A stretch of DNA of 64,000 bases from an uncultured Clostridia bacterium. Lineage in GTDB: Bacteria; Bacillota; Clostridia; Oscillospirales; Acutalibacteraceae. A program made the translations under genes and the position numbers. The stretch is from positions 1 through 64,000 of the forward strand of contig CANRIZ010000014.1 in the NCBI GenBank assembly GCA_947630835.1, given 5' to 3'. Shown here one piece after another: positions 5,211 to 45,979 of this stretch (position 1 is its first letter; every line of letters begins with the position of its first letter). A model generated the notes under the pieces. It was not told where the DNA came from. It made no database searches and was given only the letters and a program-made list of their open reading frames with translations.

Positions 5211-5900
5211 GTGAAAAAGGGACTTACAAACAATCAGCTTAAAATAATCGCCCTTATAGCAATGACCGTAGACCATATAGGCGTTGTACTGTTTCCGGAT
5301 AATGCGGCTTTCCGAATTATCGGCAGGCTTGCTTTCCCGATTTTTGCCTATATGATTGCGGAGGGCTGCAAGTATACCAAAAACAGAAAAAAATATCTAA
5401 CCGTAATAGCGTGCGAGGCTTTGGCGTGCCAGCTTGTGTACCTTGCGGCGGAAGGCTCGCTTTACTTAAGCATTTTCGTTACGTTCACATTGAGCATATC
5501 GCTTATTTATGCGCTTGATTGGGCGAAAAAGGAAAAAAGCTTCGGCAGGATTTCTGCCGCCGCGGCGTCGGTAGTGGCTGTGTTCTTTATTTGCGTAATA
5601 ATGCCCGAATTGCTTAGCGGCACGGATTTCGGCGTCGATTACGGCTTTTTCGGAGCGCTTACCCCCGTTGTGATTTATTTTACAAAAGATGATAAACGTA
5701 AAAAGCTTATGTCCCTGTTTATTATGTGCGTTTTATTGAGCTTTGCATATGGGGATATACAATATTTCTGCGTGTTCTCGGTTCTGCTTTTGGCGTTCTA
5801 CAACGGCGAAAGGGGAAAGCGCAATATAAAATATTTTTTCTACATTTATTATCCGCTTCACCTTGCGGCGATATATTTGATTTCGCTGATATTACGGTAG
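5211..5900 (+). CDS. TraX family membrane protein
   Basis: The N-terminal NNQLKIIALIAMTVDHIG and the following RIIGRLAFPIFAYMIAEGC are the conserved TraX signature. TraX in F plasmids acetylates pilin, but most chromosomal Firmicute members are uncharacterised and may be membrane acyltransferases. The protein is about 229 residues with roughly eight hydrophobic segments. The track starts at TTG 5202; GTG 5211 is better placed, about ten bases after AAAGGA, whereas TTG lies almost on top of it. It follows the symporter gene on the same strand by about 80 bases. Confidence 0.88.
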   Translation: MKKGLTNNQLKIIALIAMTVDHIGVVLFPDNAAFRIIGRLAFPIFAYMIAEGCKYTKNRKKYLTVIACEALACQLVYLAAEGSLYLSIFVTFTLSISLIYALDWAKKEKSFGRISAAAASVVAVFFICVIMPELLSGTDFGVDYGFFGALTPVVIYFTKDDKRKKLMSLFIMCVLLSFAYGDIQYFCVFSVLLLAFYNGERGKRNIKYFFYIYYPLHLAAIYLISLILR

Positions 5901-5989
5901 AAAACAAATACGGCGAAAAAACGGCGTTTGAACGCTCGACGAAACGCTTTAACCGAAAAATAAGCAAGAACTTTGGGAAAATCAAATTA

Positions 5990-6025
5990 AAAAGGCGGAA
6001 GCGCAAAATCGCTCCCGCCTTTTTT
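5990..6025 (+). terminator. Rho-independent terminator after traX-like gene
   Basis: AAAGGCGGAAGCG and CGCTCCCGCCTTT form a stem with one mismatch and a six-base loop, followed by a run of T. The 290 bases from here to cassette A contain no gene or signal that I can support. Confidence 0.8.
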
Positions 6026-6315
6026 CATTGCACAAGTTCAGTAAGCTGTGTATTTGTATAGCTGTCATAAAAATAATTTATTTTGGTTTTATCTTTATAA
6101 CCCCTACAATAGGTGTAATTATTTTGTTGGTTTACACCGCCTGTTATCGACATGCTTTTTGCTCTTTTGCCGCAGTACCGTTTTTTTTGACTTAATTGCC
6201 GTCTTCCGCATATTTTAGCTAAGCATCACATTAATATAGAATTTGATTATGTCCCGTAATATATTTTTTCATAAATACTATTATTTTAATTTCTGCTTTT
6301 GTGTCGGCCCATTGC

Positions 6316-6606
6316 TTACCACTCAACCCACTCCATATCTGCCTCAGCTTCCCAAAATGTTTTGCCTTCAAAAATAGGCTCATTTTGGGCAAGCTCTAAG
6401 CATTTTTCTAAAGTGGAAGCTGTTTTGTTAAACACGGTTTTAGAATAGTTCCCGTTTTTGTCCCAAGTGTCAATCACATAAGAGTATTCATTCTTTTCTT
6501 TATCAAATATAAGACCGTGAAAAAAGTATTTCACGTCTTTATATATCACAGCACATTCCTCAAATGTGGTTTGGTCAATAAATTTGTATACATTTCCGCC
6601 TTTCAT
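6316..6606 (-). CDS. Cassette A: small acidic partner protein (FWE.E.DM.WV family)
   Basis: A 96-residue protein with no signal peptide or membrane segment and no family that I recognise. It begins MKGGNVYKFID and ends GKTFWEAEADMEWVEW. Three relatives lie in cassette B (41961, 42652, 43337) with the same FID start, a central YF.G stretch and the same aromatic-acidic end. Its ATG overlaps the stop of the MGGRGTF gene by four bases (ATGA), so the two are translationally coupled. The acidic character and fixed position after the partner resemble an immunity protein or antitoxin; that role is inference. It is the last gene of the cassette. Confidence 0.75.
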   Translation of the reverse strand: MKGGNVYKFIDQTTFEECAVIYKDVKYFFHGLIFDKEKNEYSYVIDTWDKNGNYSKTVFNKTASTLEKCLELAQNEPIFEGKTFWEAEADMEWVEW

Positions 6607-6980
6607 AAATTCAGCCCCTTAAAATATTTTTTGTATTTTTTATATTCGTTCTTTGTCAATAGTCGCGGTGTTCTATCAGCAAATTTGTCTCGCTTATATT
6701 CGTGAATATGCAATACCGGATTATGATTTCCCGTCAAATTAGGTTCCGGATGATATGCAATTTCTCTTACAAGATAATGGTCTTTATCATATTCTCTGTA
6801 CATCTTAAATTTCCCGTCAGGATGTAATTGTATATAAGCACCACTTGAATGTGCTTCTGCCGGTAATCCTTTTGAATTGCCGTCTTTGCCTTGCAATACT
6901 TTCACACCGTCAATTTTTCCAACAGTTTCATATGTATATGCAATATTATTACCTGCCGCAAATGTACCTCTGCCGCCCAT
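6603..6980 (-). CDS. Cassette A: MGGRGTF family protein
   Basis: A 125-residue protein of unknown function starting MGGRGTFAAGN. Conserved positions shared with the three cassette B copies are YTY..V, DGVKVL, LP.EAHSS.AY, a DG turn, EIAYHPEP, LHIHEY and a C-terminal KKYKKYFKG. The invariant His residues in HSS, YHPEP and LHIH would suit a metal-dependent or nuclease-like active site, but no known fold is assigned. There is no signal peptide. The start follows the DUF4417 stop by one base (TGATATG). The small acidic gene overlaps its end. A toxin-like or effector role is inferred from arrangement only. Confidence 0.75.
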   Translation of the reverse strand: MGGRGTFAAGNNIAYTYETVGKIDGVKVLQGKDGNSKGLPAEAHSSGAYIQLHPDGKFKMYREYDKDHYLVREIAYHPEPNLTGNHNPVLHIHEYKRDKFADRTPRLLTKNEYKKYKKYFKGLNL

Positions 6981-6981
6981 A

Positions 6982-7605
6982 TCAGCGCACCACCTTTCTT
7001 GAAGATTGGTAGTCCACCGACACGATGTTTCCTTCCATTTCGGGAAACGGAGTACCGAGCACGATGATTTTATCGGGTTGCAAACGCTCTAACATTTCGT
7101 TGTAACCACGCATAAAGCCTATACGGGAACTTTTACACCCGATCATACCAACGGCAACCGTGCCGCCTTGCTCTACGCCGTCAAAACAAAATTCAAAGCT
7201 ACGGGCATCACTCCAACTGATAGTCGGGATAACTGTTTTGCCCTTACTTTGCCAATATGCACCCACCCAACGATTTTTTGCAACGCTTTCAAGCTGCCGC
7301 CATAAATCCATATCGGCGTAGGTTGAAAAATCGGGAGTAAGCAGAAACGCATATTGAGAATAGCGTTTCAATGAACGATCGGGGTTATCATATGTTCCCG
7401 AAAAACGATAATCGTCAACAAAGAAATGCACGCCTTTTTTCTTGTTTACATCGTTATCGTTCATCTTTGTGTCAGAGCAGGCTATCAACATAATATCATC
7501 GGTAGATAGCGATTGTTTCTTGACAAGGGGTACACCCCACTTGCCAACGGGCGTAAAAGAATTTCGCATAAAAAGAGGGTTGCCCCTCATAACTTTACTT
7601 GTCAT
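6982..7605 (-). CDS. Cassette A: DUF4417 domain protein
   Basis: A 207-residue protein matching the DUF4417 family. VHFFVDDYRFSGTYDNP (about residue 57), LLTPDFSTYADMDLWRQL, PTISWSDARSFEFCFDG and the Gly-rich IGFMRGYNEMLERLQPDKII are family landmarks. DUF4417 proteins are scattered in phages, plasmids and integrative elements; their biochemical role is not established. The copy in cassette B (43997-44620) is closely similar along the whole length. The ATG follows GGAGGTG by seven bases. Downstream genes are coupled to it. Confidence 0.88.
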   Translation of the reverse strand: MTSKVMRGNPLFMRNSFTPVGKWGVPLVKKQSLSTDDIMLIACSDTKMNDNDVNKKKGVHFFVDDYRFSGTYDNPDRSLKRYSQYAFLLTPDFSTYADMDLWRQLESVAKNRWVGAYWQSKGKTVIPTISWSDARSFEFCFDGVEQGGTVAVGMIGCKSSRIGFMRGYNEMLERLQPDKIIVLGTPFPEMEGNIVSVDYQSSRKVVR

Positions 7606-7685
7606 ATTATGACACCTCCGGAATTATATATGTTTTTTGAATGACTTTTTCACAGCAGAAAATCGAACATTTTGTACGATTACTG

Positions 7686-7714
7686 TTGCATTTTTCTCCG
7701 GAATGTGCTAATAT
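7686..7714 (+). promoter_or_regulatory. Predicted promoter of the cassette A small RNA
   Basis: TTGCAT, 17 bases, TAATAT on the plus strand, pointing away from the DUF4417 gene. The spacer contains one arm of an inverted repeat (CTCCGGAATGTGC) whose other arm (GCACATTCGGAG) lies downstream of the expected start. Cassette B has the same arrangement. Confidence 0.45.
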
Positions 7715-7720
7715 ATATTT

Positions 7721-7797
7721 ACCAAAATACGAATGGGCACATTCGGAGATTAACACTGTATTGATTGCGCAACAATCTGTACAGTGTTTTCTTTTTT
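7721..7797 (+). ncRNA. Candidate divergent small RNA, cassette A copy
   Basis: A transcript of about 77 nt starting near 7721 would contain ACCAAAAUACGAAU, a short CGAAU/AUUCG hairpin, a GGAGAUU stretch, and a strong hairpin (AACACTGTA with TACAGTGTT, plus an inner GATTG/CAATC) followed by TTTTCTTTTTT. The equivalent place in cassette B has the same parts in the same order (CCAAGACGAAU, CGAAU/AUUCG hairpin, GGGGAAUU, terminator hairpin). It is convergent with the ImmA/IrrE gene. The box TTACCAAAA at its start also occurs twice at the XRE promoter. This is a prediction from structure. Confidence 0.45.
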
Positions 7798-7845
7798 GCT
7801 TTTCAACAATCAATTCACAACACCGTCCTTTCCATTAATTTTATA

Positions 7846-8394
7846 TTACACAGCCACTTTGAAAAGCTGAAGCAATCGTATTTCGTAATTGGTATAATCC
7901 TTATTGCCGTAAGTCAACCATTTGCGATAGTAAGAGAAGACGTAGTTTGCTGCTTCAAGACTGATGTCAAAATGCTTGTAAACCTCGTGAGCATCCTTTA
8001 ATTCCAACTTATGTATGAGTACGGGCGGAGCAAGAGCGTATTTTGCAAAGAATTTCGCTTCAGCTTCAGCCAATTCGCTTTCTTCGGTGTGATCCAAGAC
8101 AATATGCCCACATTCGTGACTTATGGTGTTGTTAATACGCCTGTAGCTTTTTGCATCGTTATAAAAAATGTACCACACGCCGTCTTTTCTGACAGAGAAT
8201 CCGTCTTCGCTTTCTTGCATCATAAGTTGACATGCTTCTTCGGATTTTGAGGAATAAGGGACTACAATTGCGCCAAGTTTTGTTGCCATTTCAAAACCGC
8301 TTATAGGAATGCAGCGAATATTAAGTTCTTCAAAAGTGTTGACAACAATCTCTTTGATTTCCTCACAGCGCTTATCGGATAATTTAAATGCCAA
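7846..8394 (-). CDS. Cassette A: ImmA/IrrE family metallopeptidase
   Basis: A 182-residue cytoplasmic protein with the zinc-peptidase motif HECGHIVLDH near residue 93 and a downstream Glu cluster (EAEAKFFAKYAL) typical of the family, then a helical C-terminal part. ImmA-type peptidases cleave a partner XRE repressor when a trigger is sensed, as in ICEBs1 and temperate phages. The gene starts two bases after the end of the XRE gene, as expected for such a pair. The likely target is therefore the neighbouring XRE protein. Confidence 0.9.
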   Translation of the reverse strand: MAFKLSDKRCEEIKEIVVNTFEELNIRCIPISGFEMATKLGAIVVPYSSKSEEACQLMMQESEDGFSVRKDGVWYIFYNDAKSYRRINNTISHECGHIVLDHTEESELAEAEAKFFAKYALAPPVLIHKLELKDAHEVYKHFDISLEAANYVFSYYRKWLTYGNKDYTNYEIRLLQLFKVAV

Positions 8395-8396
8395 TA

Positions 8397-8708
8397 TTAA
8401 TCCTCCCCGAACAGAGCAGAAATCAGCGCCCGTTTTTGCTTTTCCGTCATTGTTGCGGAGTTCCTTGCCAATAAACGCTCTACCTTTGGGAAATTGAAAT
8501 TATCGGGCTCTATACCAAGCAGATAATCCGATGTTGTATGCAAAGCGGTGGCAATATTCGCAAGCATATCCGCTTTTGGCTCCCTGTCACCGGAAACATA
8601 ACGAGAGAGCGTCGCTTCGGTTGTGTTAATTCTGTCGGCAAGCTCTTTTTGCGTTATACCTTGTTTTTGCAATAGGCTTGATAACCTTTGTCCAAATGCT
8701 TTACTCAT
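8397..8708 (-). CDS. Cassette A: XRE family transcriptional regulator
   Basis: A 103-residue protein with an N-terminal Cro/C1-type helix-turn-helix (ITQKELADRINTTEATLSRY, then SGDREPKADMLANIATAL) and a short helical tail. It is the first gene of cassette A and is coupled to the ImmA/IrrE peptidase gene. The promoter has two TTACCAAAA boxes 21 bp apart that cover the -35/-10 region, suggesting autorepression. A third box lies at the predicted small RNA start. AAGGAG precedes the ATG. Confidence 0.9.
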   Translation of the reverse strand: MSKAFGQRLSSLLQKQGITQKELADRINTTEATLSRYVSGDREPKADMLANIATALHTTSDYLLGIEPDNFNFPKVERLLARNSATMTEKQKRALISALFGED

Positions 8709-8748
8709 AGTATAATTCTCCTTATTTTCGGGTGACTTTTAATTTGAC

Positions 8749-8785
8749 TTACCAAAAGTATAATCTATATTACCAAAAAAGTCAA
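8749..8785 (-). promoter_or_regulatory. Cassette A promoter with paired TTACCAAAA operator boxes
   Basis: On the minus strand TTGACT, 17 bases, TATACT forms the promoter. On the plus strand TTACCAAAA occurs at 8749-8757 and 8770-8778, exactly 21 bp apart, overlapping the promoter. AAGTCAA/TTGACTT also form an outer inverted repeat. A fit for XRE repressor binding. Confidence 0.65.
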
Positions 8786-8854
8786 GAACTTTTTTACAAT
8801 AATCACAATATTTTGTTATAAATTTAAGAACTAACACTATATAAGGATATAAGG

Positions 8855-8893
8855 AAAAATCACGGTGGAGAAATTACTTTCCCCGCCGTGATT
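8855..8893 (-). terminator. Rho-independent terminator after the GDG-repeat lipoprotein gene
   Basis: On the minus strand AATCACGGCGGGGAAA pairs with TTTCTCCACCGTGATT around a five-base loop and is followed by TTTTCC. It closes the ypeB-lipoprotein transcript and separates it from cassette A. Confidence 0.75.
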
Positions 8894-8975
8894 CTCGCTA
8901 ACGGCAATATGCTTTCGCAACAGTTGCCCTGTGAGCGCCGAGCCAAACAGCCCGGCTTTTAGTTTTAATCGGCTT

Positions 8976-9287
8976 TTATCTTGCGGCGTCCGAAACGGCG
9001 TCGCCTGCGCCTGTAACTATGTCGTTTACAGCGTCGCCTGCGCCCGTAACCGCGTCGCCCACACCGTCGCCGATGTCTTCCGCCGCTTCGCCTATGCCGT
9101 CGCCTACCTCGTTTGCGGCGTTATCCCCGTTGTTCATAGCCGAATCGGAGGTCGAGCTTGCGCTCGTGCTTGTGTTTGTACTTGAGCTTGTGTCGCCGAG
9201 CGTGTCTTTATTCTTGTTGCCGCACGCTACAAAAATCAAAGCGCAAAGTACAAGCAATACAGAAAGAATAATTACTCCTTTTTTCAT
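8976..9287 (-). CDS. Small lipoprotein with Gly-Asp-Ala repeats
   Basis: A 103-residue protein with a signal sequence and lipobox (ALIFVAC at about residue 22), a Ser/Thr-rich linker, and then imperfect repeats of the form GDGVGDAVTGAGDAV to the end. Alternating small and acidic residues suggest an extended or amphipathic surface domain. It follows ypeB on the same strand after 54 bases with AAGGAG before the ATG, so it may be expressed with ypeB during spore formation. No known family. Two plus-strand frames here are shadows of the repetitive sequence. Confidence 0.75.
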   Translation of the reverse strand: MKKGVIILSVLLVLCALIFVACGNKNKDTLGDTSSSTNTSTSASSTSDSAMNNGDNAANEVGDGIGEAAEDIGDGVGDAVTGAGDAVNDIVTGAGDAVSDAAR

Positions 9288-27406: not shown

Positions 27407-27432
27407 CTATAAAAGCTTTACGAAAAATAAAT

Positions 27433-27527
27433 AACCGGGGGTGCTGGCGCTAAGCCGGCTGAGATTACGGATATTGCTTCGTTGACCCTTTAACCTGATA
27501 CGGATAATGCCGTCGTAGGAAGTATAA
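27433..27527 (+). ncRNA. TPP riboswitch (THI element)
   Basis: The conserved parts are all present: GGGGGTGCTGGCG, GCCGGCTGAGATTA, GACCCTTTAACCTGATACGG and the closing ATAATGCCGTCGTAGGAAGT. It senses thiamine pyrophosphate and lies directly upstream of thiT, with an intrinsic terminator in between. Confidence 0.97.
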
Positions 27528-27542
27528 AGAAAAAGTTTTCTT

Positions 27543-41754: not shown

Positions 41755-41789
41755 GCAGAAAAACAAGCTTGTTATCATAGAACCAAGCA

Positions 41790-41822
41790 AAATCCCCTGA
41801 ATTGATTTCAGGGGATTTTTGA
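41790..41822 (+). terminator. Rho-independent terminator after the efp unit
   Basis: AAATCCCCTGAA, short loop, TTCAGGGGATTTTT. It borders cassette B. The next 140 bases are AT rich with no recognised feature. Confidence 0.9.
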
Positions 41823-41960
41823 TTGGTAATAGGGAAATTTTAATGCAATATAATTTTTTCGTTCATTTTTTAGCTTCTGTATAATCTCATAAAAAGTATT
41901 ATTACGGTCGCATGTAACAAATATTACTCCGTTATTATAAGTATCACTTTTTATCAGAAC

Positions 41961-42251
41961 TTAACCGAATAAGACTGTGATATCTTGTTCTGCCTCGTAA
42001 ATGGTTCTTCCGTCAAAAAGTTTGGCTTTCTCAAATTGCTTAACACATTCGGCATGATTTTTGCCGTGACAACGAAAAATGTAATTCTCATCTCCAAAGC
42101 ATTCGAATATTACAAATTCCACAAGCGTCGTATCATTCTCGTATACCTGGGATTCCATAAAATACCGTTTTCCGTTATACTCAAACTCTTTTTCCGGACC
42201 GCCCATTGTCAATAAATCGTTGATAAATTCAGCTAAAGTATTTCCTTTCAT
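41961..42251 (-). CDS. Cassette B: small acidic partner 3
   Basis: A 96-residue protein related to the other FWE.E.DM.WV proteins but the most divergent: it starts MKGNTLAEFINDLL, has FEYNGKRYFMES in the middle, and ends GRTIYEAEQDITVLFG, where the usual FWEVEKDMQWVDC is altered. It belongs to the third pair, whose MGGRGTF gene is frameshifted, so it may be under relaxed selection or specialised as an orphan partner. ATG 42251 is preferred to TTG 42254. Last gene of cassette B. Confidence 0.65.
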   Translation of the reverse strand: MKGNTLAEFINDLLTMGGPEKEFEYNGKRYFMESQVYENDTTLVEFVIFECFGDENYIFRCHGKNHAECVKQFEKAKLFDGRTIYEAEQDITVLFG

Positions 42252-42257
42252 CAATGG

Positions 42258-42637
42258 TTACCCCTTAAAAAATGATTTGTATCGTTTATATTCGGTGCGT
42301 GTTAATTTGCGCTTCACAGTAGTTGGGGAATTATGATAATCTATTCCCGGCTTTTGATGAATATGAATATGCAGCAATCCCCTTTGCCGAGACTCGGTTC
42401 ATGATGATACCCAATTTCCAAAGTAATTTCGTGATTTTCGTTATATTCTCGATATTGATGAAAAACGCCGTCTTTATCGAGAAGAATATAACTAAAACTC
42501 GAATGTGCCTCTTCGGGCAATTTATAGGATTTAGATTTATCAATAGGTTGCAAAACTTTAACACCATTGATTTCGTCAACAATTTCGAAAGTATAAGGAA
42601 CCGGATTTCCGCTTGCAAAAGTACCTCTTCCACCCAT
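42258..42637 (-). pseudogene. Cassette B: MGGRGTF protein 3, frameshifted
   Basis: The frame starts MGGRGTFASGNPVPYTF and keeps LPEEAHSSFSY and EIGYHHEPSL, then after a GGGG run the original frame reads CCIFIFIKSRE and stops. The neighbouring frame continues with LHIHIHQKPGIDYHN and ends EYKRYKSFFKG before TAA at 42258, the expected family C-terminus. One indel near 42380 therefore splits an otherwise complete gene. It is either a natural frameshift mutation or a sequencing or assembly error. Confidence 0.75.
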
Positions 42638-42653
42638 ATCAGCGCACCACCTT
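42621..42653 (-). repeat. Duplication seam: copied end of the DUF4417 gene before pair 3
   Basis: The minus strand reads AAGGTGGTGCGCTGATATGG, identical in cassette A to the end of DUF4417 (Lys-Val-Val-Arg-stop) and start of the MGGRGTF gene. Here no DUF4417 gene precedes it; only its last codons were copied with the pair. Confidence 0.75.
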
Positions 42654-42942
42654 AACAATCTACCCACTGCATATCCTTTTCAACTTCCCAGAAGGTTTTT
42701 CCGTTCCAAATTTTTGCATTTTCAAAGTCGGTAATACAATCTGAAACAGACAACCGAGAAGTTGAGAAGATAGTAGAGCTACAGGTAAGATTATAGATTT
42801 CAAGCACTACCTTAATAATTTTTCCCTTTTCGTCCTTTGTAACTTGGCAGCCGTTGAAAAAGAATTTTTTGCCGTCATATATTACATAGTGGTCTTCATA
42901 AGATAATTTATCAATGAAATCTTTTGCATTTCCGTCAATCAT
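42652..42942 (-). CDS. Cassette B: small acidic partner 2
   Basis: A 96-residue protein, MIDGNAKDFIDKLSYED at the start and GKTFWEVEKDMQWVDC at the end. YDGKKFFFNG lies in the middle. Its ATG overlaps the stop of MGGRGTF gene 2 by eight bases, which implies translational coupling. It is one of four members of this unrecognised family in the window and the closest in layout to the cassette A copy. An immunity or antitoxin role is inferred only from position and acidity. Confidence 0.75.
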   Translation of the reverse strand: MIDGNAKDFIDKLSYEDHYVIYDGKKFFFNGCQVTKDEKGKIIKVVLEIYNLTCSSTIFSTSRLSVSDCITDFENAKIWNGKTFWEVEKDMQWVDC

Positions 42943-43321
42943 ACCATTTTCGTCCTTTCATATATTTTTTGTATTTTTCAAAAGTTTGTCTGTCCAAATA
43001 TTGAGCAGGCCCGTGAGTAAAATCCTTATCGTAATAATGAATGTGAAGCACAGGATCATGATGCCCCGTTAGTCGAGGTTCGGGATGATAGGCAATTTCC
43101 ATTTTCAGCATATGATCTTCCTTGCCGTAAATTCTAAGCATACCCATTGTTCCGTCTTTGTGGAGCTTTAAGTACATTTCGCTTGAATGTGCTTCGGCGG
43201 GGAGATCATGTAAACCGGTTCCCGGTATTCCTATGAGGACTTTTACGCCATCATATTTATCGACAGTCTGATATGTATAAGGAACCGGATTTCCTGCCGC
43301 AAAAGTACCTCTTCCGCCCAT
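42935..43321 (-). CDS. Cassette B: MGGRGTF protein 2
   Basis: A 128-residue intact member of the MGGRGTF family: MGGRGTFAAGNPVPYTYQTV, LPAEAHSSEMYLKL, EIAYHPEPRLTG, VLHIHYY, and KYKKYMKGRKWYD at the end. The C-terminal third differs most from copy 1 and the cassette A copy, so specificity may lie there. It is preceded by a copied fragment of the DUF4417 gene end, and the partner gene overlaps its stop. Confidence 0.75.
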   Translation of the reverse strand: MGGRGTFAAGNPVPYTYQTVDKYDGVKVLIGIPGTGLHDLPAEAHSSEMYLKLHKDGTMGMLRIYGKEDHMLKMEIAYHPEPRLTGHHDPVLHIHYYDKDFTHGPAQYLDRQTFEKYKKYMKGRKWYD

Positions 43322-43337
43322 ATCAGCACACCACCCT
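43305..43337 (-). repeat. Duplication seam: copied end of the DUF4417 gene before pair 2
   Basis: The minus strand reads AAGGGTGGTGTGCTGATATG before MGGRGTF gene 2, a slightly diverged copy of the DUF4417 end plus the one-base spacer. Confidence 0.7.
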
Positions 43338-43615
43338 TAACAGTCTACCCACTGCATATCCTTTTCAACTTCCCAAAAGGATTTCCCACCGAAGATTTTT
43401 GCGCTGACAAACTCTGAAACGGGATAGTTTTTATCTTTTGAATAGGCACGCCATTCAAAACGGCTGTCAGAAGGTTCCAAAACATAAAGCTCCAGCGTCG
43501 GTGTTTTGTTTTCCAAATAGCCTTGTATAAAATATTTATTCCCGTTGTAGAGAAAAAAACGCTCATCGCCATAATACAGACCATCGATAAACTCTTGTGC
43601 ATTTCCGTTTATCAA
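43337..43615 (-). CDS. Cassette B: small acidic partner 1
   Basis: A 92-residue member of the small acidic family: INGNAQEFIDGLYYGD at the start, YNGNKYFIQG in the middle, and GKSFWEVEKDMQWVDC at the end, nearly identical to partner 2 at the C-terminus. The start is TTG overlapping the TGA stop of MGGRGTF gene 1 (TTGA), so its translation should depend on that gene. The middle of the protein is the variable part. Confidence 0.72.
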   Translation of the reverse strand: MINGNAQEFIDGLYYGDERFFLYNGNKYFIQGYLENKTPTLELYVLEPSDSRFEWRAYSKDKNYPVSEFVSAKIFGGKSFWEVEKDMQWVDC

Positions 43616-43995
43616 GATAATTTCACTCCCTTCAAATATTTTTTATACCTTTTAATTTCTTCCGATGTCATCAAACGTGGCGTTCGGTCTTGAAAATTGT
43701 CTCTGCTATATTCATGAATATGTAGAACATTCTCCGATCTATTTCCATTGTTCAATTTCGGCTCCGGGTGATATGCAATCTCTCGAATGAGATAGTGGTC
43801 TTTGTCATAAAAACGCATTTCATGGAATGTGCCGTCTGGTTTTAGTTTGATATAAGCGCTGCTAGAATGTGCTTCGTCGGGCAGACTGTGCTTCCCGTTT
43901 ATCCCTTCTAAAACCTTTACATCCTCAATATAGCCGACGGTTTTGTATGTATAATCCACTGGATTTCCTACCGCGAAAGTACCTCTTCCTCCCAT
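43612..43995 (-). CDS. Cassette B: MGGRGTF protein 1
   Basis: A 127-residue member of the family, closest to the cassette A copy: MGGRGTFAVGNPVDYTYKTV, LPDEAHSSSAYIKL, REIAYHPEPKL, VLHIHEYSRDNFQDRTPRL and KRYKKYLKGVKLS. Its ATG follows the DUF4417 stop by one base (TGACATG), as in cassette A. No signal peptide or membrane segment. Conserved His residues suggest metal binding or catalysis; function unknown. Confidence 0.75.
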   Translation of the reverse strand: MGGRGTFAVGNPVDYTYKTVGYIEDVKVLEGINGKHSLPDEAHSSSAYIKLKPDGTFHEMRFYDKDHYLIREIAYHPEPKLNNGNRSENVLHIHEYSRDNFQDRTPRLMTSEEIKRYKKYLKGVKLS

Positions 43996-43996
43996 G

Positions 43997-44620
43997 TCAC
44001 CGCACCACCTTTCTTGAAGACAGATAGTCTACCGGTACAATATTGCCCTTCATCTCGGGAAACGGCGTACCGAAAACGATGATTTTTTCGGGCTGTAACC
44101 GCTCGAGCATTTCGTTATAACCGCGCAAAAAGCCAAGGCGGGAACGCTTGCACCCGATCATACCCACAGCGACTGTTCCGCTTTGCTCGACGCCGTCAAA
44201 GCAGAATTCAAAACTGCGGCTGTCGCTCCAGCTGATGGTTGGAACCACCCTCAATCCTTTGCTTTGCCAATACGCACCTACCCAGCGATTTTTCCCAACA
44301 CTTTCGATCTGCCGCCACAAATCCATATCGGAGTATGTCGAGAAATCCGGTGTAAGCAAAAATGCATATTGAGAGTATCTCCTTAGCGAGCGTTCGGGAT
44401 GATCATATATTCCGCTGAACCGATAATCGTCAACAAAAAAGTGAACGCCTTTTTTCTTGTTTCCTTCGCTATCATTTGACCTTGTGTCGGAACATGCCAC
44501 TAAGTTGATTTTGTCAAAAGGAAGATTTTGCCTTTTAACAATGGGGATACCCCATTTTCCTGCGGTTTCATAAGAGTTCCGCATAAAAAGCGGATCTTCA
44601 CGCATCTGTTTACTTTTCAT
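43997..44620 (-). CDS. Cassette B: DUF4417 domain protein
   Basis: A 207-residue protein closely similar to the one in cassette A throughout (KKKGVHFFVDDYRFSGIYDH, LLTPDFSTYSDMDLWRQIES, TISWSDSRSFEFCFDGVEQS, IIVFGTPFPEMKGNIVPVDY). ATG 44620 gives MKSKQMREDPLFMRNSY, aligned with the cassette A start; the track start at 44647 adds nine unrelated residues. DUF4417 is an uncharacterised family frequent in mobile DNA. It heads the pair array and is coupled to MGGRGTF gene 1. Confidence 0.88.
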   Translation of the reverse strand: MKSKQMREDPLFMRNSYETAGKWGIPIVKRQNLPFDKINLVACSDTRSNDSEGNKKKGVHFFVDDYRFSGIYDHPERSLRRYSQYAFLLTPDFSTYSDMDLWRQIESVGKNRWVGAYWQSKGLRVVPTISWSDSRSFEFCFDGVEQSGTVAVGMIGCKRSRLGFLRGYNEMLERLQPEKIIVFGTPFPEMKGNIVPVDYLSSRKVVR

Positions 44621-44699
44621 AATGAGTATAATCCTTTCCGGGATCATTACGGAAACGGCATTGGATCCCGTGCTTTTGTTGAAAATTTACCGCTTCCAC

Positions 44700-44728
44700 T
44701 TGATTTTTGCCCCGAAATATGTTATACT
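44700..44728 (+). promoter_or_regulatory. Predicted promoter of the cassette B small RNA
   Basis: TTGATT, 17 bases, TATACT on the plus strand, placed as in cassette A. The spacer and -10 contain one arm (CCCCGAAATATGTTATA) of an imperfect inverted repeat whose other arm is TATAACAGTATTCGGGG. Confidence 0.45.
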
Positions 44729-44734
44729 CAAAAA

Positions 44735-44808
44735 GCCAAGACGAATATAACAGTATTCGGGGAATTGCATCGTTATAACTGCTCGAACAGCTATAACGGT
44801 GCTTTTTC
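44735..44808 (+). ncRNA. Candidate divergent small RNA, cassette B copy
   Basis: A predicted transcript of about 74 nt with GCCAAGACGAAU, a CGAAU/AUUCG hairpin with an eight-base loop, GGGGAAUU, and a terminator hairpin (CGTTATAACTG with CAGCTATAACG) followed by CTTTTTC. The order of parts matches cassette A, although the terminator sequences are different. The T run is short. It lies between the peptidase and DUF4417 genes on the opposite strand. Expression is not shown by sequence alone. Confidence 0.42.
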
Positions 44809-44862
44809 TGTATATAAGTTAATCATAAAGATATTCCTCCTTTCCGTTCATTCACAGCGCAC

Positions 44863-45387
44863 TTAATAAGTCAACCGTTTCTTTGCGGCGGACTCCGATA
44901 CGCCGTAGACCTGCATTATTTCTTCTTTTGTCATTCCTTTTGTGCTCTCATAAGGCATCATGACTTCTCCTGCAAGGGCCATAACGATCCATTCTAAACG
45001 CTTATATGCAGGAGTTTCCTTTGTTAATTGGCGTGAAAAAATGGGCTTGAATCCGAGTTTGTCGGCAAACGGGTGCATAATTTCGTGAATGATGTGCATT
45101 CTGTGTCCGCCGATTTTCTTCTCATATGCACCTTTATATACGGAATCTTTTATTTGTATGAGATAACCGTCTTCGGTTTTTACGCATTGTGCCGGAACAT
45201 TACCAGGAAGTTCGTCGTTATATACTATCGTGTACCTGACATCTTCAAAGCCCTCAAAATCGGGGAGCCTGTCAAGAAGTTTCACTGGGTCAATCGATTC
45301 ATCTTGCGTTAAGCCGCATATTGAGCGAAAGAGTTTTGCATATAAGCGAAGTTCGTGTCGGTTAGTCGGTTTCGTCTCGTAATCCAC
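44863..45387 (-). CDS. Cassette B: ImmA/IrrE-like metallopeptidase
   Basis: A 174-residue protein with the zinc motif HIIHEIMHPFADKLG (HEIMH) near residue 100 and a following helical region with ALAGEVMMPYES, which supplies the third ligand region and the MMPY-type loop seen in ImmA-like proteins. The C-terminal MTKEEIMQVYGVSESAAKKR is the family end. It starts at GTG sharing one base with the XRE stop (TAGTG). It is much diverged from the cassette A peptidase (HECGH), so the regulators were exchanged or evolved faster than the rest. Confidence 0.85.
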   Translation of the reverse strand: MDYETKPTNRHELRLYAKLFRSICGLTQDESIDPVKLLDRLPDFEGFEDVRYTIVYNDELPGNVPAQCVKTEDGYLIQIKDSVYKGAYEKKIGGHRMHIIHEIMHPFADKLGFKPIFSRQLTKETPAYKRLEWIVMALAGEVMMPYESTKGMTKEEIMQVYGVSESAAKKRLTY

Positions 45388-45749
45388 TACTCATCCTCCT
45401 TGTTCAGGAGTTTCATAATGGCTTCAGCGGTATCTTCGTCAAGATTCTCAAAGGATCTCTGAAATTGAACAGCGAGCTGCCTCTGGGTGTTAGACGCGGA
45501 GGTAAGATTTATTTTCATTTGCGTCTTAGACGACTCAATGGCATCAAGCAATTCCGCTTTTTTCTCCGAATCCAGCTTATAATGCTCTACGATTTTCGGA
45601 ATCCACTCTTCCGGAACATTCCTTTTTCCGCTTTCGACGGTGGAAACAAAAGGGATCTTTACTTCCAGCATCTTTGCGGTGTCGCCCATAACCTCATGTG
45701 CTTTTACCCTAAGTACACGCATAAATTCTCCGTATTTTGTATATGCCAT
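45387..45749 (-). CDS. Cassette B: XRE-like transcriptional regulator
   Basis: A 120-residue protein with an N-terminal HTH of the XRE type: YTKYGEFMRVLRVKAHEVMG, then LEVKIPFVSTVESGKRNVPE, and a C-terminal helical part (LAVQFQRSFENLDEDTAEAI). It is not closely related to the cassette A regulator. ATG 45749 follows GGAGG by eight bases; the track begins two codons earlier at TTG. It is the first gene of the cassette, with a perfect promoter, and its partner peptidase is directly coupled. Confidence 0.85.
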   Translation of the reverse strand: MAYTKYGEFMRVLRVKAHEVMGDTAKMLEVKIPFVSTVESGKRNVPEEWIPKIVEHYKLDSEKKAELLDAIESSKTQMKINLTSASNTQRQLAVQFQRSFENLDEDTAEAIMKLLNKEDE

Positions 45750-45773
45750 TTTCAATTCCTCCCTTTCCGGTTG

Positions 45774-45802
45774 ATTATATCATGGGTTAACTTGCTTGTC
45801 AA
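45774..45802 (-). promoter_or_regulatory. Consensus promoter of cassette B
   Basis: On the minus strand TTGACA, 17 bases, TATAAT. TTAAC occurs three times (45787, 45810, 45834) at about 23-base spacing over and behind the promoter, possible regulator sites. Confidence 0.82.
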
Positions 45803-45942
45803 GAAAAATTTAACAAGCTTTTGATTAAATTATTTAACTAATAAAATTTGCAAATTTTTTTTCATTATCACTTATTGCGGTGGGTTCCTATATTAGGGCT
45901 ATCCGTAGACTTTTTACTTTTTGACAGAAATATATTTCTACA

Positions 45943-45979
45943 CAAAAAATCCCCTGAAGCTGTGGCTTCGGGGGATTAA
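45943..45979 (-). terminator. Rho-independent terminator after the zinc-ribbon membrane protein gene
   Basis: On the minus strand AATCCCCCGAAGC and GCTTCAGGGGATT form a stem followed by TTTTTG. It contains AAAATCCCCTGAA (plus strand), also present in the terminator on the other side of cassette B. Confidence 0.85.

Follow-up and report, generated by a model that had tools for sequence, protein, structure and literature searches.

The evidence tips towards reading two gene cassettes from an uncultured Clostridia bacterium of the Acutalibacteraceae as chromosomal, stress-induced polymorphic toxin-immunity units of phage ancestry, held by two putative locks and with use against other cells as the favoured role. 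Both lie on contig CANRIZ010000014.1 (assembly GCA_947630835.1), of which we analyzed 64,000 nucleotides, hereafter the window. Cassette B consists of an XRE regulator gene, an M78 (ImmA/IrrE-type) metallopeptidase gene, a structured gap, a DUF4417 gene and three pairs of an MGGRGTF-family gene with a gene for an acidic protein; cassette A has the same layout with one such pair. All genes were confirmed at their coordinates on the minus strand and follow an identical order in both cassettes, so that the shared order and orientation claimed in a preliminary description of this DNA holds. The features of the two cassettes, including small RNAs (sRNAs) with estimated starts, are listed below.

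Cassette B
45774-45802, minus strand: operon promoter, TTGACA-N17-TATAAT, immediately 5' of the XRE gene (from sequence)
45387-45755, minus strand: XRE/helix-turn-helix (HTH) regulator (Pfam HTH_31 1.9e-4, under the curated cut-off)
44863-45387, minus strand: M78 (ImmA/IrrE-type) metallopeptidase with HEIMH (Pfam PF06114 3.8e-5, over the cut-off)
44700-44728, plus strand: putative antisense sRNA promoter, TTGATT-N17-TATACT with TG extension (promoter scoring)
44735-44812, plus strand: putative antisense sRNA, ~75 nt, estimated start; terminator hairpin and T-run at 44767-44807
43997-44647, minus strand: DUF4417 protein (Pfam PF14386 1.4e-49)
43612-43995, minus strand: toxin candidate 1 (MGGRGTF family)
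43337-43615, minus strand: immunity candidate 1 (acidic), 4-nt overlap with the toxin gene
42935-43321, minus strand: toxin candidate 2 (MGGRGTF family)
42652-42942, minus strand: immunity candidate 2
42256-42637, minus strand: toxin candidate 3, disrupted by a frameshift; its first reading frame stops at 42341, ahead of the conserved HIH
41961-42254, minus strand: immunity candidate 3
Cassette A
8757-8785, minus strand: operon promoter, TTGACT-N17-TATACT (from sequence)
8397-8708, minus strand: XRE regulator, CapH-like (PADLOC capH 1.5e-12; Pfam HTH_3 8.9e-14)
7846-8394, minus strand: M78 peptidase, CapP-like, with HECGH (PADLOC capP 3.5e-8; Pfam PF06114 2.2e-7)
7686-7714, plus strand: putative antisense sRNA promoter, TTGCAT-N17-TAATAT, weak match (promoter scoring)
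7721-7797, plus strand: putative antisense sRNA, estimated start; terminator at 7752-7797
6982-7605, minus strand: DUF4417 protein (Pfam 6.2e-48)
6603-6980, minus strand: toxin candidate (MGGRGTF family), with a structure model from AlphaFold2 (AF2) at a predicted local distance difference test score (pLDDT) of 82
6316-6606, minus strand: immunity candidate

The cassette genes abut or overlap, with a spacing of 1 nt between the DUF4417 and MGGRGTF genes and of -4 nt between the MGGRGTF and acidic genes; the sole wide spacing is the gap of 215-240 nt between the M78 and DUF4417 genes. The DUF4417 proteins of A and B are 80% identical and the regulators fall into different groups, in line with the earlier view of a conserved DUF4417 behind diverged regulators, while the MGGRGTF proteins share 51-66% identity with the first cassette B copy and the acidic proteins show 30-48% identity. 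The tandem pairs described before are present as well (three in B, one in A), but in B a frameshift right ahead of the conserved HIH motif breaks the third MGGRGTF gene, of which intact relatives occur in loci L076 and L081. Elsewhere the same genome has, on contig C7 (L003), a third cassette of the XRE-M78-RNA-DUF4417 type, which carries another toxin.

The arrangement is widespread. The MGGRGTF alignment was scanned once against 84,980 species genomes, and all loci were annotated with profiles built for this analysis. This yielded 79 further MGGRGTF loci, most of them from Clostridia of gut and rumen, plus a few in records that carry the label of another phylum; locus counts do not equal independent events, as near-identical relatives are included (e.g. 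L067/L070 and L058/L059/L062). DUF4417 lies immediately 5' of MGGRGTF in 65/75 loci with sufficient upstream sequence, an acidic gene follows immediately 3' in 74/79 loci, and XRE/M78 genes are located 5' of DUF4417 in 49 of 63 loci. Gene order and strand are constant across the surveyed loci. The co-occurrence of the cassette genes across dozens of genomes is far above chance, and the rare co-occurrence of DUF4417 and MGGRGTF that had been raised as a possible objection is the opposite of what was seen.

An indication of function comes from the slot directly after DUF4417, the content of which is exchanged between loci. It is occupied by an EndoU nuclease (Pfam 1.3e-14) in L003, the third cassette of the same genome, by Ntox50 (6.6e-28) in L036 and by DUF6883 (3.2e-16) in L089, where the next gene encodes DUF4926 (3.6e-14). 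Many further genes directly 3' of DUF4417 begin with MG-x-G and belong to no known family, and in L006 and L007 DUF4417 itself is extended by a long additional C-terminal domain. Among the catalogued polymorphic-toxin domains are EndoU and Ntox50, both known from exported toxins (PMC3482391). Because known toxin domains swap into this slot, positional exchange leads us to read MGGRGTF as most likely a new family of toxins, with the acidic protein as the cognate immunity protein. The exchange with EndoU, Ntox50 and DUF6883/DUF4926 also supports the earlier notion of effector/partner pairs in a defence, toxin or competition locus. Further support comes from the surplus of acidic genes, with 12 loci in which immunity-type genes outnumber toxin genes; from L069, where a recombination scar fuses the start of an acidic gene to the tail of DUF4417 ahead of a second MGGRGTF; and from four near-invariant histidines of the MGGRGTF proteins (H44, H77, H91 and H93). 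These proteins of ~125 amino acids have an MGGRG start and no MuF domain, and are predicted to be His-dependent enzymes, possibly nucleases.

Pfam, NCBIfam and the PDB returned noise only when searched with the sequences of the MGGRGTF and acidic proteins, and strong PHROGs matches were obtained only for four distant MGGRG relatives (phrog_9479, no function). The AF2 model of the cassette A MGGRGTF protein had no significant match in the PDB, with a polymorphic-toxin entry at E ~1; among predicted phage proteins it had three matches, at E 4e-6 to 5e-5, and one of these covers part of a protein annotated as minor capsid protein. The profile searches proposed earlier placed neither family in a known family, and the structure comparison placed MGGRGTF in no PDB fold but linked it to predicted phage proteins.

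The phage connection extends to DUF4417, which is frequent in phages (479 records) and has been reported there in ParB-CTPase-DUF4417 fusions (PMC12704722). In Roseburia phage Jekyll, Dorea phage DO134P1 and Streptococcus phages, the gene order is DUF4417, an MGGRGASSG-type gene, terminase, and a prophage-like locus from the same genus as our host (L004) has a ParB-DUF4417 fusion beside an MGGRGASSG gene. MGGRGTF and the phage-type MGGRGASSG family were aligned by hhalign with a probability of 97%. The acidic family was considered as a relative of the MGGRGASSG partner family and rejected, as the profile comparison failed (probability 4%). In phage Jekyll (L180:5621-5893), the small protein beside DUF4417 begins VVVNLQFFGGRGGSSG, in which an LQFF start of the capsid type is joined to a GGRG motif. 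Besides that, DUF4417 of Mycobacterium phage DyoEdafos (L182), annotated as 'nuclease', lies within a tRNA gene array, and in related actinophage contigs (L131-L159) the gene after DUF4417 encodes an MGGRGG protein that is rich in glycine, has a YHRTS motif and gives no Pfam match; we take this motif to resemble those of ADP-ribosyltransferases. The AF2 model of the cassette A DUF4417 protein (pLDDT 89) gave TIM-barrel matches (apurinic/apyrimidinic endonuclease family 2, E 0.0045; many tRNA-guanine transglycosylases, E 0.008-0.06) that are too weak for calling DUF4417 an enzyme. On contig C11 of the host genome, terminase and portal-like genes form a cluster, which may belong to a particle-producing element.

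A captured phage gene pair with a role in the phage cycle, e.g. in packaging or host takeover, would account for part of this picture, with MGGRGTF as a non-toxic protein and the acidic protein as an adaptor; indeed, in the Streptococcus, Roseburia and Dorea phages the DUF4417 and MGGRG genes adjoin terminase without a clear immunity gene. We consider this explanation improbable, as chromosomal cassettes exchange MGGRGTF for unrelated toxin domains, some of them sit amid housekeeping genes (L023, L014), and close MGGRGTF relatives are absent from viral contigs, with none in 2.9 million contigs covered by two IMG/VR scans. On the earlier question of a phage structural family, this absence speaks against it, and a phage link is seen in the fold matches to predicted phage proteins, including the one annotated as minor capsid protein. 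The record MT835546.1 (L023), labelled 'Bacteriophage sp.', was rejected as a phage home of the cassette, which there adjoins PSP1 and DNA polymerase III delta' genes; this region is probably bacterial chromosome.

The first putative lock is the regulator pair. Both M78 peptidases keep the HExxH motif (HECGH in A, HEIMH in B), strong promoters precede both XRE genes, and the cassette A regulators match the PADLOC capH and capP models. Single-stranded DNA (ssDNA) activates CapP, leading to cleavage of CapH and control of adjacent immune operons, e.g. the cyclic oligonucleotide-based antiphage signalling system CBASS (PMC13373217). By analogy, the cassettes would respond to DNA damage. The preliminary description had seen in regulator and peptidase the classical switch of phages and ICEBs1; the idea of a switch is supported, but not solely in that form, given the CapH/CapP precedent in defence (PMC13373217). 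It is highly improbable that XRE and M78 themselves form a toxin-antitoxin (TA) pair of the Xre-COG2856 type, with the remainder as unrelated cargo. Zinc-metallopeptidase/HTH-Xre pairs have been described as TA systems (PMC10538038), but in our loci the XRE/M78 type varies (a, b or fused) while the RNA, DUF4417 and toxin slot stay put.

The second putative lock resides in the gap between M78 and DUF4417. A covariance model (R1) built from ten gaps detected the element in ~30 loci, nearly always in this gap and with matches down to 1e-20, and in 0/38 phage or other DUF4417 loci. Its covariation exceeded that of all 500 shuffles (0/500) and of slid controls. The best sigma-70-like promoter scored higher on the antisense strand (mean 10.9, compared with 9.0 for sense and 8.9 for shuffled sequences; Wilcoxon p ~1e-8), with a perfect TTGACA-N17-TGnTATAAT on this strand in nine gaps, and wobble pairs in 38 hairpins favoured antisense by 78 to 13 (p ~2e-12, optimistic given the relatedness of the loci). 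Because promoter strength and wobble asymmetry, as two independent strand tests, agree, the element is predicted to be mainly an antisense sRNA of ~75 nt with a sigma-70 promoter and an intrinsic terminator. The intergenic RNA-like element noted earlier is therefore present, but promoter, terminator and wobble pairs place its function mainly on the opposite strand. A sense-strand reading was rejected for the first hairpin on account of the wobble asymmetry; the second inverted repeat overlies the antisense sRNA promoter. In about a dozen loci from Lachnospiraceae/Erysipelotrichaceae, this gap instead holds another leader, whose alternative hairpins lie close to the ribosome site of DUF4417, and neither this leader nor the gap element matched Rfam above the gathering score, where only noise was seen. 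In L029, L031, L042, L051, L060, L063, L078 and L086, the alternative leader shows conserved GGGGATACGAGT..CCTCCAAATAAGT with alternative pairing, and its ribosome site lies within a GGGG..CCCC hairpin.

The chromosomal sites were compared with a same-genus relative (G001) that has neither cassette. For cassette B, positions 41819-45934 are missing from G001 and ~246 bp of other sequence are found instead; for cassette A, the stretch that G001 lacks falls within window positions 5898-8976. Cassette B is bounded by two terminator-like hairpins (window 41782-41827 and 45944-45977) with similar CCCCTGAA..TTCAGGGG sequences, which are also present at the empty site of G001. A mobile element was considered as an explanation and rejected: the absence from G001 is clean, terminators flank the cassette, and no integrase was seen within it. 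Elsewhere in the window, a thiamine pyrophosphate (TPP) riboswitch is located at 27427-27538 on the plus strand.

From these data we propose the following mechanism. In the first lock, the XRE protein would, judging from its family, repress the strong sigma-70 promoter 5' of its own gene, until DNA damage or phage-type stress produces ssDNA and the M78 peptidase cleaves the XRE protein, as CapP does with CapH. In the second lock, the ~75-nt antisense sRNA, complementary to the operon leader, would limit expression of DUF4417 and toxin. The payload would comprise the constant DUF4417 and, behind it, a toxin that can be exchanged and has a short N-terminal MG-x-G start (MGGRGTF in these cassettes), with the 3' end of the toxin gene overlapped by the acidic immunity gene. 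Use against other cells is favoured: in the manner of a colicin or MuF toxin, damage-induced toxin would be released by lysis or with phage-type particles, DUF4417 would serve as a loader or adaptor, and surplus immunity genes would shield from the toxins of kin. We thus lean towards competitors rather than the producing cell as the target. A more specific version is offered as an unlikely conjecture: a TIM-barrel-like DUF4417 might recognise the MG-x-G start of interchangeable toxins and load or activate them, e.g. in phage-type particles, under control of the damage protease switch and the antisense RNA, and would then define a new polymorphic-toxin class.

Several observations weigh against a stress-induced toxin-immunity unit. 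Neither Pfam nor NCBIfam places MGGRGTF in a toxin family, and its model matches no fold of the PDB. Export is left unsupported, as we recognised neither a secretion signal nor any of the known trafficking domains; by Pfam/NCBIfam, MGGRGTF and DUF4417 both have no trafficking or secretion domain. The phage versions are seemingly without an immunity gene (L004, L180, L181), which fits a toxin acting at lysis time and equally a non-toxic phage function. In addition, no XRE/M78 was recognised upstream by these models in 14/63 loci, PADLOC did not recognise the cassette B regulators as CapH/CapP, and the antisense promoter of cassette A, strong in many other loci, is a poor consensus match.

Some of these points, together with CapH/CapP-type regulators governing anti-phage operons such as CBASS (PMC13373217), would suit an intracellular anti-phage or abortive-infection module, in which stress would relieve the repression, the toxin acts inside the infected cell, the acidic protein is a labile antitoxin and DUF4417 a sensor or modulator. 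The lack of a recognised export signal is in agreement with this, and two layers of repression suggest a protein harmful to its own cell. Nevertheless, we hold this to be a doubtful, if serious, alternative: a co-expressed immunity gene with accumulating surplus copies is more typical of competition, the EndoU and Ntox50 domains swapping into the slot are known from exported polymorphic toxins (PMC3482391), and PADLOC matched none of DUF4417, MGGRGTF and the acidic protein.

Such a cassette would give DUF4417, frequent in phages and without known function, a testable role, and would contribute one candidate family of toxins and immunity proteins as well as a family of antisense RNAs that is so far unlisted. 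It would also connect cassettes with exchangeable toxins, common in gut and rumen Clostridia, to a DNA-damage switch of the defence type, with the five-gene arrangement recurring across dozens of species.

Known systems share parts of this organization. ImmR/ImmA of ICEBs1 and phages is an XRE repressor with a metallopeptidase, as in the cassette, which is without integrase, relaxase and replication genes. Nuclease colicins are damage-induced, and their toxin gene overlaps or adjoins the immunity gene; the cassette has the same gene layout and presumably the same induction, but neither a domain for receptor binding or translocation nor a lysis gene was seen in it. With CapH+CapP (PMC13373217), it shares an HTH repressor and an M78 peptidase heading the operon, and cassette A matches both profiles, whereas the payload is DUF4417 with toxin/immunity genes instead of a CD-NTase and the B regulators are not recognised by the models. 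The ParB-CTPase-DUF4417 phage fusions (PMC12704722) share DUF4417, but the DUF4417 proteins of the window have no ParB domain. Altogether, the combination of switch, antisense RNA, DUF4417 and exchangeable toxin/immunity genes appears undescribed in the literature searched, in agreement with the preliminary description. The closest likeness is with polymorphic toxins and MuF phage-capsid toxins (PMC3482391, PMC5576092), which share exchangeable EndoU/Ntox50, an overlapping immunity gene, extra immunity genes and the recombination scar and, for the phage DUF4417 versions, the phage packaging neighbourhood of MuF toxins. Our polymorphic-toxin claim would cover this toxin/immunity organization and not full membership, as the trafficking feature was tested and not found: the cassette has no recognised large trafficking protein, repeats or MuF domain. 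In contrast to these toxins, its constant part is a separate DUF4417 gene, its toxins are small and single-domain, and it has its own repressor-protease pair and putative antisense RNA.

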